Below are positions 12,366 to 15,443 of a stretch of 64,000 nucleotides of DNA, in pieces. Position 1 is the first letter of the stretch. Each line of letters begins with the position of its first letter. Source of the stretch: Algoriphagus vanfongensis DSM 17529 (GTDB lineage: Bacteria; Bacteroidota; Bacteroidia; Cytophagales; Cyclobacteriaceae). Under the pieces are notes generated by a model. That model saw nothing but the letters and a program-made list of their open reading frames with translations, was not told the DNA's origin and ran no database searches. A program made the position numbers and the translations under genes. The stretch is from contig NZ_AUBX01000014.1 in assembly GCF_000429465.1 (NCBI RefSeq), positions 186,001 to 250,000 of the forward strand, in the 5' to 3' direction.

Positions 12366-12647
12366 ATGAAGATCAAAGAATCCATTGAAAAAGAGCAAAT
12401 CAACACGCTTAATTTTTCTAGAAAAGAAGTGCTGCAAAGTACCGATGAGATCAAATTGAGACTCGCAGACCTCCAAAGATCTCAGACTTTGGGCAACTTA
12501 CTTCACTCCAAAGTCCATATCACTTTCCAGTCCGCCAATGAGCAAATCTACGAGGTCTACACCACCGTGTGGGCTGTAGCCAGTGAATTCATCGTACTCA
12601 AAGGAGGCGTCACCATTCCTATCAATTCTATTCTGAAAGTCGAATGA
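12366..12647 (+). CDS. Conserved-looking 93-residue protein of unknown function
   Basis: I do not recognise a domain family. The protein begins with a charged helix (MKIKESIEKEQINTLNF), continues with a Lys/Arg-rich helix (EIKLRLADLQRSQTLGNLLHSKV) and ends in alternating hydrophobic strands (HITFQSANEQIYEVYTTVW, FIVLKGGVTIPINSILKVE). The last part looks like a small beta-barrel of SH3 or Sm type, and the sequence shows no signal peptide. It lies divergent from ybaB and ends 1 bp from the convergent hisS stop. The gene is supported by its ATG and protein-like composition, not by homology. Confidence 0.65.
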   Translation: MKIKESIEKEQINTLNFSRKEVLQSTDEIKLRLADLQRSQTLGNLLHSKVHITFQSANEQIYEVYTTVWAVASEFIVLKGGVTIPINSILKVE

Positions 12648-12648
12648 G

Positions 12649-14010
12649 CTAGACTAAAGCCTCTATCACACCTTCTATAGTCAATGCTTGCTGATCTCCT
12701 GTAGCCAGGTTTTTCAGAGCAAGGGTATTGTCTTCTATTTCCTGATCTCCACAGATTCCTACGTAAGGAATGCTATTCTTGGAGGCGTAATCCAGTTGTT
12801 TTTTCATTTTGGCAGATTCTGGATAGATCTCTGCCACGATTCCTTTTTGCCTGAATTGTTGCAGAAGCGACAAGGCATACCCAAATCCCTTCGAATCAAA
12901 ATAGGTCAAAAGCAACTGAGTTCCTTCTAGTTTCGTTTTTGGAAACAGATCCAACTCATCCATCACATCATAGATTCTGTCTACGCCAAAGGAGAAGCCC
13001 ACACCAGATACTCCCTGAAGTCCAAAAACACCTGTCAAATTATCATATCTACCTCCACCGCTCACTGAGCCGATAGAGACATGATTGACTTTCACTTCGA
13101 AAATAGCCCCGGTATAATATGACAGACCTCTGGCCAACACCATGTCCAGTTCCACATGGTTTAGATTTTCGCCCATCTGTCCCAAAAGTTCAAAAGTCTC
13201 CTCCAGCTCTCTCACTCCTTCTAGTCCCACGGCACTGCTTTGAAGAAAAGTCCTTAGAAACTCCAATTTACCGGACTCATCTCCATCATAGTTGACCAAA
13301 GGAGAAAGCTTCTCCATCGAACTCTCCGCGAAGTCCCTTTGCAAAAGCTCTTCCTGAACTTTTTCCCATCCTATTTTATCGAGCTTGTCTATTGCCACAC
13401 ACAAAGGACCTTCTTTCCCTGACTCTCCGATCACCTCGGAAATTCCGGTCAGAATCTTTCGGTTGTTGATTTTGATCGAGTAATCTTTCAAGCCTAGTTG
13501 AGCAAAAACTCTTCTGATCATCAAAATAATCTCAGCTTCACACACCAGGCTATCTGTCCCGACCACGTCGGCATCACATTGGTAAAATTCACGATACCTC
13601 CCCTTCTGCGGTCGATCTGCTCTCCAAACGGGCTGAATCTGAAAACGCTTGAATGGAAACGTCAATTCATTGCGATTCATCACCACAAATCGCGCGAAGG
13701 GAACAGTCAGATCATAGCGCAAACCTTTTTCAGAAACTTTTGAAAGAGTAGCCTGAGGACCTTTTTCTAGGTCTGCTGACTCTACTTTTTTTAGAAAATC
13801 TCCGCTATTCAAGATTTTAAAAAGCAATTGATCGCCTTCGTCGCCATACTTTCCCGTCAATGTACTGAGATTTTCCATCGCGGGAGTTTCGATCTGATTG
13901 TAGCCAAAGAGCCGAAATGTATCTTTGATCGTATCCAGAATAAAATTCCTTCTGGCCATCTGTACAGGTCCAAAATCCCTGGTTCCTTTAGGCAAACTTG
14001 GTTTTTGCAT
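12649..14010 (-). CDS. hisS: Histidine--tRNA ligase
   Basis: The protein has 453 residues, within the long-type HisRS range. It attaches histidine to tRNA-His in the cytoplasm. Class II motifs are present: motif 1 around KDTFRLFGYNQIETPAMEN, motif 2 FQIQPVWRADRPQKGRYREF, the HisRS-specific VLARGLSYYTG, and motif 3 GFSFGVDRIYDVM. A C-terminal alpha/beta anticodon-binding domain follows (about 360-453, LLLTYFDSKGFGYALSLL). The ATG fits the family start (MQKPSLPKGTRDFGP). It is a single gene, convergent with the 93-residue gene. Confidence 0.97.
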   Translation of the reverse strand: MQKPSLPKGTRDFGPVQMARRNFILDTIKDTFRLFGYNQIETPAMENLSTLTGKYGDEGDQLLFKILNSGDFLKKVESADLEKGPQATLSKVSEKGLRYDLTVPFARFVVMNRNELTFPFKRFQIQPVWRADRPQKGRYREFYQCDADVVGTDSLVCEAEIILMIRRVFAQLGLKDYSIKINNRKILTGISEVIGESGKEGPLCVAIDKLDKIGWEKVQEELLQRDFAESSMEKLSPLVNYDGDESGKLEFLRTFLQSSAVGLEGVRELEETFELLGQMGENLNHVELDMVLARGLSYYTGAIFEVKVNHVSIGSVSGGGRYDNLTGVFGLQGVSGVGFSFGVDRIYDVMDELDLFPKTKLEGTQLLLTYFDSKGFGYALSLLQQFRQKGIVAEIYPESAKMKKQLDYASKNSIPYVGICGDQEIEDNTLALKNLATGDQQALTIEGVIEALV

Positions 14011-14129: not shown

Positions 14130-14137
14130 TACCTTTG
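14130..14137 (+). promoter_or_regulatory. Bacteroidota-type -7 promoter element TACCTTTG
   Basis: TACCTTTG matches the Bacteroidota -7 consensus TAnnTTTG exactly. It lies 40 nt ahead of the 48-residue gene, leaving room for a short leader. I do not see a strong -33 TTTG at the expected distance. Confidence 0.6.
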
Positions 14138-14177
14138 CACTCCGTTTCGAAACAAAAATCTTTAAACACATATAGTC

Positions 14178-14324
14178 ATGGCAGTTACTACTCTAAAGAG
14201 AAAACTAAGAAGAAAAAGACAAGGCCAGAATACACGTACGATCAAATTGAAGCAATTGAATGCTCAGCCAGTGATCAAAAACGTGGACGTGGAAGAAATC
14301 AAAAAGTCTTTCGAAAAGAAATAA
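14178..14324 (+). CDS. 48-residue highly basic protein, ribosome-associated-like
   Basis: The ATG opens a 48-codon frame ending in TAA. It is flanked by an exact TAnnTTTG promoter element and a strong intrinsic terminator, so it is a single-gene transcript. The N-terminal half is extremely basic (KRKLRRKRQGQNTRTIKLK). The C-terminal half carries PVIKNVDVEEIKKSFEK, a pattern I recall from small hypothetical proteins of Bacteroidota. The composition resembles ribosomal proteins or ribosome-bound factors, though no known ribosomal protein matches. Function is inferred only. Confidence 0.75.
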   Translation: MAVTTLKRKLRRKRQGQNTRTIKLKQLNAQPVIKNVDVEEIKKSFEKK

Positions 14325-14343
14325 GATCCAATTCAGGATCCTT

Positions 14344-14369
14344 AAAAGCGACCTCAGGTCGCTTTTTTA
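14344..14369 (+). terminator. Intrinsic terminator of the 48-residue gene
   Basis: A 10-bp perfect stem (AAAAGCGACC / GGTCGCTTTT) with loop TCA is followed by T residues, starting 20 bp after the stop codon. Confidence 0.9.
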
Positions 14370-14464: not shown

Positions 14465-14980
14465 TTATTTTTTCTCCCATTCTCCTCTTTTTCCTAACTC
14501 TACGACTCGCAAATCCCGGACTTTCCCTGACTCTATCTCAAATAAGAGCATCGTCCGCATCCTGTGAAATCCCTGCTGTCCGATAGCCCCAGGGTTCATA
14601 TACAAGCAATTCAGAGCCCGATCAAATTCCACTTTGCAAATATGAGAATGGCCGCAGATGAACACCTGCGCATTGGCCTGTTTGATTCTTGCTTTTACTC
14701 CTTTGGCATAGCGAGGTGGCTTACCTCCAATATGTGTCATCAAGACTTTTACGCCCTCCACTTCAAATTCAGCCCATTCTGGATATTCCAGCTGAAGCTC
14801 GGGTCCATCTATATTGCCAAAGACAGCCCTGACTGTTTTTGAATCGGGAAGCTTTTGCATGATCGATAGCGAACCTATATCCCCAGCATGCCAAATTTCG
14901 TCTATATCCTGTAGGTACGCGATCGTCTGTTGATCTATATAATTATGTGAATCCGAAATCAGGGCGATTTTGACAGCCAT
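14465..14980 (-). CDS. YfcE/MJ0936-type metallophosphoesterase
   Basis: The protein has 171 residues from the ATG of MAVKIALISDSHNYID. A further ATG 15 codons upstream would overlap the divergent rhodanese start and adds a non-conserved segment, so the shorter form is preferred. Calcineurin-like phosphodiesterase motifs are in order: DSH (metal), HAGDIGS (D-H/GD), GNID (GN[H/D]), MTHIG and CGHSH (GHTH box), then MNPGAIG. Family members hydrolyse phosphodiester bonds with two metal ions; the true substrate is rarely known. It is divergent from the rhodanese gene with about 40 bp between them. Confidence 0.92.
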   Translation of the reverse strand: MAVKIALISDSHNYIDQQTIAYLQDIDEIWHAGDIGSLSIMQKLPDSKTVRAVFGNIDGPELQLEYPEWAEFEVEGVKVLMTHIGGKPPRYAKGVKARIKQANAQVFICGHSHICKVEFDRALNCLYMNPGAIGQQGFHRMRTMLLFEIESGKVRDLRVVELGKRGEWEKK

Positions 14981-15023
14981 AGCAGTTTGTAAGAAAATTT
15001 GAAAACTCCTCAAAAATACTCCC

Positions 15024-15443
15024 ATGAAATCCCTGCCCCACTATTTGCTAGCTGTTTTTTTCATAATTGGTATTTCTTTGAGCTCAGTAGCTTCCACGAT
15101 GGATGAAGGCGAAAAAAGGCTCTCTGTTAGACAATTTGAAAGAAAAATCAACAAGAGAAACACCATCTTGCTAGATGTGCGTACACCGGAAGAGATGCAA
15201 AAATCTCATATTCCGGGGGCCATAAACTTGGATTGCCTCTCCGATAATTTTAAGGCAAAAATCGAACAATTAGACAAGTCCAAGACTTATCTACTGTATT
15301 GTAGATCGGGAATTAGGGCAGCAAAAGCTGCCGCCTACATGAAAACCAAAGGTTTCAAAAAAATTAAATTACTCGATGGAGGGTTCCAAGCCTGGACTCA
15401 ACAAAACAAACCAACCAAAACCATATACCATGCAGTCAATTAA
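15024..15443 (+). CDS. Exported rhodanese-like domain protein
   Basis: The protein has 139 residues. An N-terminal hydrophobic segment (LLAVFFIIGISLSSVAS) acts as a signal peptide or anchor. A single rhodanese domain follows: LLDVRTPEEMQKSHIPGAINLD, then the active-site loop YCRSGIRA with the catalytic Cys, and LLDGGFQAW. Such proteins transfer sulfane sulfur or serve as periplasmic thiol-handling modules. The end overlaps the start of the aldehyde dehydrogenase gene by 14 bp in another frame, which suggests coupled translation. Confidence 0.92.
   Translation: MKSLPHYLLAVFFIIGISLSSVASTMDEGEKRLSVRQFERKINKRNTILLDVRTPEEMQKSHIPGAINLDCLSDNFKAKIEQLDKSKTYLLYCRSGIRAAKAAAYMKTKGFKKIKLLDGGFQAWTQQNKPTKTIYHAVN

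Follow-up and report, generated by a model that had tools for sequence, protein, structure and literature searches.

The 48-residue basic protein encoded in a 64,000-nucleotide stretch of DNA from Algoriphagus vanfongensis DSM 17529 (order Cytophagales, class Bacteroidia; the whole stretch is called the window here) is the product of a real and strongly conserved gene under purifying selection. The evidence leans slightly towards the view that its product is a ribosomal protein, or one stably bound to the ribosome, that is specific to lineages in one part of the Bacteroidia. The putative link to the ribosome rests on signs of abundance, on the shape of the protein, and on its phyletic pattern. 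If the protein is ribosomal, a large part of the Bacteroidia has a ribosomal component that is missing from both Bacteroidota structures found, and protein lists based on 7jil and 9i5t are incomplete for those Bacteroidia. Even if it is not ribosomal, it is a conserved protein, probably an abundant one, for which the libraries searched contain no family model.

Table 1. Features of the gene unit, its neighbours in the window, and the sites of the extended promoter motif in the ribosomal cluster of the same genome.
Feature	Position	Strand	Remarks
hisS (histidine--tRNA ligase), divergent neighbour	12649-14010	-	NCBIfam TIGR00442, E 2.1e-118
Promoter -7 element TACCTTTG plus extension, together TAnnTTTGCAnnCC	14130-14143	+	
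Predicted 5' leader, about 36 nt	14142-14177	+	Inferred from the position of the -7 element
Gene of the 48-aa basic protein	14178-14324	+	ATG at 14178, stop at 14322-14324; product MAVTTLKRKLRRKRQGQNTRTIKLKQLNAQPVIKNVDVEEIKKSFEKK
Regions of the protein			Basic N-terminal helix (predicted, residues 2-28), PVIKNVD linker, short C-terminal helix (predicted, residues 38-46)
Intrinsic terminator	14344-14366	+	10-pair stem, then T run
YfcE family phosphodiesterase, convergent neighbour	14465-15025	-	NCBIfam TIGR00040, E 1.3e-19
TAnnTTTGCAnnCC sites in the ribosomal cluster	L226:1809, 5364, 11744		Before rpsL, uL3 and uS8 by ORF positions

The original prediction had described a short gene between an exact TAnnTTTG element and a strong terminator, and both elements are present (Table 1). 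The element TACCTTTG (14130-14137) starts 48 nt before the ATG, with 40 nt between its end and the start codon, so that transcription is expected to begin near 14142; no Shine-Dalgarno sequence is seen by eye in the 5' leader. Downstream of the stop codon, the segment 14325-14375 folds with -19.3 kcal/mol (z -6.0), a value that none of 200 shuffles equals. The protein contains 15 lysine and arginine residues in 48 (31%) and four acidic ones (Asp and Glu), resulting in a pI of 11.2. Its earlier description as half basic is accurate for residues 1-14, of which seven are basic as read from the sequence, but is overstated for the protein as a whole. A scan of the window for RNA genes gives no Rfam match at the gathering score and no tRNA. 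A separate 93-aa ORF lies between ybaB and hisS (12366-12647, plus strand) and has no NCBIfam match at E 1e-8.

The gene, present as a single copy in its own genome, belongs to the conserved core of its lineage and encodes a small, basic protein. In a search of a set of relatives, 36 of the 38 genomes match at E<=1 (own genome included), one of them through a weak, stop-containing match in a genome that is 67% complete, and the two genomes without a match are only 76-78% complete. All 25 genomes with a completeness of 90% or more and a contamination of 5% or less, again counting the own genome, match the protein. One match of E 0.072 in this search (genome G033) reaches 4e-14 with a profile that does not contain the sequence of that genome. 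A scan of named genomes confirms 246 relatives among 333 candidates, and the best 80 of these 246, mostly from Algoriphagus, Cyclobacterium, Belliella, Cecembia and Echinicola, form together with the window a set of 81 close copies. All 81 start with ATG and have 45-49 codons. Over 384 close pairs, pN/pS amounts to 0.14, and comparing the window with the 80 relatives gives 0.21. Conservation beyond close strains with synonymous bias had been named beforehand as the mark of a real gene, and this is what is found, with homologues across the class; the absence of conservation and the frame breaks that would have spoken against it do not appear, as start and frame are kept in every close copy.

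The promoter is conserved along with the gene. In Flavobacterium johnsoniae, the refined -7 consensus is TAHHTTTG with a T at -12, according to an excerpt of PMC6847099, and TACCTTTG fits the consensus as given there. The window contains 48 TAnnTTTG sites where 44.5 are expected; since the motif is as common as chance, its mere presence is no evidence, and it is its conservation that counts. In this respect, TAnnTTTG is found within -110..-15 in 81/81 close copies (6.7% in mononucleotide shuffles), the counts over positions -42..-49 alone add up to 81, and the longer reading TAnnTTTGC (ending in TTTGC) is likewise upstream in all 81. Among 40 distant copies, 25 have TAnnTTTG in the same interval of -110..-15 (5.9% in shuffles) and 18 have a strict hairpin with a T tail within 150 nt downstream.

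The extended motif TAnnTTTGCAnnCC is a possible marker of the strongest housekeeping promoters in the class, rather than of ribosomal genes alone. It occurs once in the window, at the 48-aa gene, with 0.21 sites expected and at least one site in 19 of 100 shuffles, a rarity that is partly post hoc because the motif was first noticed at this gene. The 20 kb ribosomal cluster contains three sites (Table 1) as against 0.07 expected (0/200 shuffles), and two other stretches of this genome contain none. In the relatives, the 48-aa gene follows within 150 nt at all 18 sites found in 80 loci and at six of the nine sites found in 40, while the exact extension is missing in 62/80 and 34/40 of these loci, respectively. 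The motif also precedes uL3 in 7 of the 30 uL4 loci examined (30 of 60) and HU, recognised by eye, in seven of the eight rows listed of bS22 loci. The HU-like gene of A. vanfongensis itself (L343) is preceded by it too; L313-L318, L324 and L343 are among the loci in which TAnnTTTGCAnnCC precedes a ribosomal-protein gene of this kind or an HU-like gene. As HU genes share the motif, promoter and codon use mark abundance and not the ribosome.

The codon score of the 48-aa gene is 0.104, while the 40 genes of the window that are 150 codons or longer reach 0.043 at best. The value of 0.104 falls inside the span covered by 31 genes of the ribosomal cluster; this set omits rpsL and takes in a few genes that are not ribosomal (e.g. 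fusA, secY and map). In the own genome, 66% of ribosomal 48-codon fragments score above the gene, compared with 1.3% of background fragments; when the background is held out, 217 of 10,000 such fragments reach its score. The genes of bL38 (0.173) and bS22 (0.229, without the first three residues) in the same genome both score higher. In nine of ten further genomes, at most 0.1% of background fragments score as high, with G123 intermediate at 7.8%, a contrast that is widened because training and testing used the same genes; in eight of the ten, the 48-aa gene is below the median ribosomal fragment. Taken over 10 of 11 genomes, with G123 in between, codon use is like that of highly expressed translation genes. 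The likeness in shape to a ribosomal protein that the original prediction proposed is borne out, and the codon use is like that of ribosomal proteins as well. Codon use and promoter suggest that the protein may be a ribosomal component outside the structures solved so far.

In the class Bacteroidia, the family is distributed by lineage. Profile A1 matches 54 of 296 genomes (E<=0.01), its matches outside the order mostly covering the first 25-30 residues only, and profile A3 matches 70/296 at E<=0.05. Some of the A3 matches arise by construction, because A3 is built partly from sequences of the genomes searched. At E<=2e-5, 64/296 genomes match A3, and they fall into 12 families in a nearly all-or-none manner (f1 9/9, f11 2/2, f13 2/2, f25 11/12, f30 3/3, f39 1/1, f50 4/4, f52 12/12, f61 8/8, f64 8/8, f70 1/1, f71 3/3). 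The sole f25 genome without a match, G300, lacks a match to uL4 as well. The remaining A3 matches comprise two weak ones (G061 and G060) and four at E 0.018-0.049; these four resemble chance matches, showing long frames, a stop, or a short partial alignment. The other 226 genomes have no match at E<=0.05, and the protein is therefore dispensable for the ribosomes of Bacteroidia in general. In a phylum-wide search, profile A2 matches 27 of 392 genomes, all of the same class except for one match with three stops. A profile of bS22, which is even shorter, detects its target in 294/296 genomes of the class, and short length alone therefore does not explain the absences of the 48-aa family; faster divergence could.

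The absences include the sampled lineages nearest the two solved Bacteroidota ribosomes. In the F. johnsoniae ribosome (7jil), uL4 shares 98% identity with its counterpart in two genomes of family f65, in which none of the ten genomes has the 48-aa family. For 9i5t, the nearest uL4 sequences come from f45, f68 and f78 (best 73% among the matches listed in 296 genomes), and none of their nine genomes has it either; this second point is weaker than the first because the organism of 9i5t is outside the genome sample. Both Bacteroidota ribosomes found in the PDB thus belong to, or come closest to, sampled families in which no copy can be recognised.

Two tiny ribosomal proteins resemble the 48-aa protein in kind. 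One is bL38 (DUF4295, PF14128), reportedly located in the 50S subunit of Flavobacterium johnsoniae, which is likewise about 50 aa long, basic, and from Bacteroidota; it differs in having no sequence match with the 48-aa protein and in being a separate gene in 11/11 genomes including the own one, so that identity with it is rejected. In A. vanfongensis, this gene lies at G000:C8:9928-10068 and matches the chains named DUF4295 in 9i5t and L38 in 7jil. The other is bS22, an AURKAIP1/COX24-like 30S protein, which is tiny, very basic, and in this genome encoded outside the ribosomal-protein genes. By contrast, there is no sequence match between the two, bS22 is not limited to the lineages that carry the 48-aa gene, and the sole match of profile A4 in the genome is another gene (G000:C7:82018-82104). 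A replacement of bS22 by the 48-aa protein is rejected as well, since bS22 is nearly universal (294/296). The domain COX24_C (PF08213) is set aside, being over the cut-off in 0/11 genomes; the bS22 profile matches all nine of those 11 PF08213-negative genomes that it covered. A precedent for a ribosomal reading comes from Borrelia, where bS22 and bL38 were unannotated in the genome and were found via cryo-EM density, bL38 being assigned afterwards by mass spectrometry, as stated in an excerpt of PMC10618245.

The original prediction could also name no protein of the ribosomal kind that it matches, and the database searches agree. The protein of the window has no Pfam or PDB match at E<=10, the family has no significant match in Pfam, NCBIfam or the PDB, and profiles A1, A2, A3 and A5 have no PDB match below E 0.09. 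Scattered matches to Pfam, NCBIfam and PADLOC families, with one or two members each and the best at about E 0.007, are taken as chance. A possible distant phage relative, judging by the alignments, is phrog_27005 (of unknown function), which matches 4 of 26 A3 members (best E 0.0017) and, in a re-scan, two of ten members (E 0.022 and 0.087), with alignments that run colinearly starting at residue 2-4. With tblastn (E<=1), the protein of the window has no match among 72,556 plasmid and 50,697 phage records, and three scans of viral contigs confirm 0 of 46, 10 and 51 pattern candidates. No paper was recognised as describing the protein from the titles and abstract beginnings of open-licence papers, and none of four of its peptide strings was found in the open-licence literature.

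The two halves of the protein differ in their conservation. R8-K9 is the same in all 26 rows of alignment A3, with fixed spacing, and members outside the order begin with M(A/G)VTRLKRKxRRNK-like sequences exactly at the start codon. The C-terminal half varies between families, with PVIKNVDxExIKxxF in this order and SPYKxESGIIL and other forms elsewhere. AlphaFold2 predicts a helix of residues 2-28 with high confidence and one of 38-46 with less certainty for the protein of the window, and a helix of residues 5-31 for an f64-type member; the predicted basic helix has a block pLDDT of 84-94. A Foldseek search with the model of the window protein returns no matches, and is uninformative for a single helix.

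These features can be combined into a model in which the basic N-terminal helix (about residues 2-28, including the invariant R8-K9) would lie along an rRNA helix, while the C-terminal segment would attach to an adjacent ribosomal protein or to a turn in the rRNA. The gene's own strong housekeeping promoter and terminator would supply the protein in an amount similar to that of ribosomal proteins. Tentatively, and just short of probable, the family would be a ribosomal family without a name in the copies of Pfam, NCBIfam and the PDB that were searched, a core part of the ribosome in about one fifth of the sampled Bacteroidia (64/296) that is absent nearest the solved ribosomes. Its helix would bind rRNA in a fixed manner, whereas its C-terminal anchor would differ by lineage, having been swapped (PVIKNVD versus SPYKxES type) as the class evolved.

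An unlikely alternative with several points in common is that the protein is small, abundant, and either nucleoid-associated or a general binder of nucleic acids. Its basic helix would then cover DNA or RNA, and its C-terminus would serve self-association or the binding of a partner. The basic helix, the pI of 11.2, and the Lys/Ala/Glu-rich tails of some members would suit such a function, and so would the extended promoter that HU genes have in this and other genomes. HU, the nucleoid protein recognised by eye, is comparable in being abundant and basic with the same promoter type, but has another size and sequence, with no homology seen. Against a general binder stands the invariance of R8-K9 with fixed spacing in 26 diverse members, which looks like one specific binding site and not like general charge.

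Quite unlikely, too, is a factor for ribosome assembly, hibernation or translation, which would bind only transiently instead of being present in stoichiometric amounts like a ribosomal protein. The evidence from codons and promoter would apply to it equally, and the stand-alone gene unit is near translation genes in places: the BLAST cluster of hisS stands divergently upstream in the window and in 11 of 20 regions from the order, and a SpoU-type methylase is upstream in f52 regions. The high-expression codon use in 10/11 genomes argues against this reading as it suggests a stoichiometric need, and so does the inconsistency of the neighbours across families. The synteny with hisS that the original prediction proposed to check holds within the order, the annotated neighbours in other families being different ones (SpoU-type methylase, decarboxylase, polyphosphate kinase, TrkA, M28 peptidase); three of ten scanned neighbours in other families have no Pfam match at E 1e-10. 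The cluster of the YfcE neighbour is found in 6/20 regions of the order. None of the regions examined places the gene in a ribosomal-protein operon. Such a location is usual for ribosomal protein genes, but not required, and the bS22 gene of this genome is likewise found outside them.

There is a slim chance that the protein is a small subunit of another abundant machine, such as RNA polymerase or a secretion or respiratory complex. The conserved C-terminal PVIKNVDxExIKxxF looks like a protein-protein contact, as such a subunit would need, but there is no significant family or structure match, and no operon shared with such genes is seen in 40 regions, in which only some neighbours are annotated. 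A spurious ORF or a non-coding transcript, which the short length and the lack of a database name might suggest, is hardly credible given the intact start and frame of the 81 close copies, the pN/pS of 0.14-0.21, and homologues throughout the class.

Some members of the family are extended at the C-terminus. Long Lys/Ala/Glu-rich or Ala/Thr-rich tails follow the conserved core in L171, L173, L174, L179 and L182, all from the same order. In two f64 genomes, G209 and G288 (L187 and L193), a protein of the 48-aa type is fused to a C-terminal helix-hairpin-helix domain, identified as PF14520 in the fusion protein of G209. A similar domain ends bS1 in both genomes, with a weak likeness (E about 2e-4 and 7e-4). 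As a link to the ribosome this fusion is set aside as weak, because the likeness to bS1 is exceeded by that to the domain on a membrane coiled-coil protein of the same genomes, which the fused domain resembles most.
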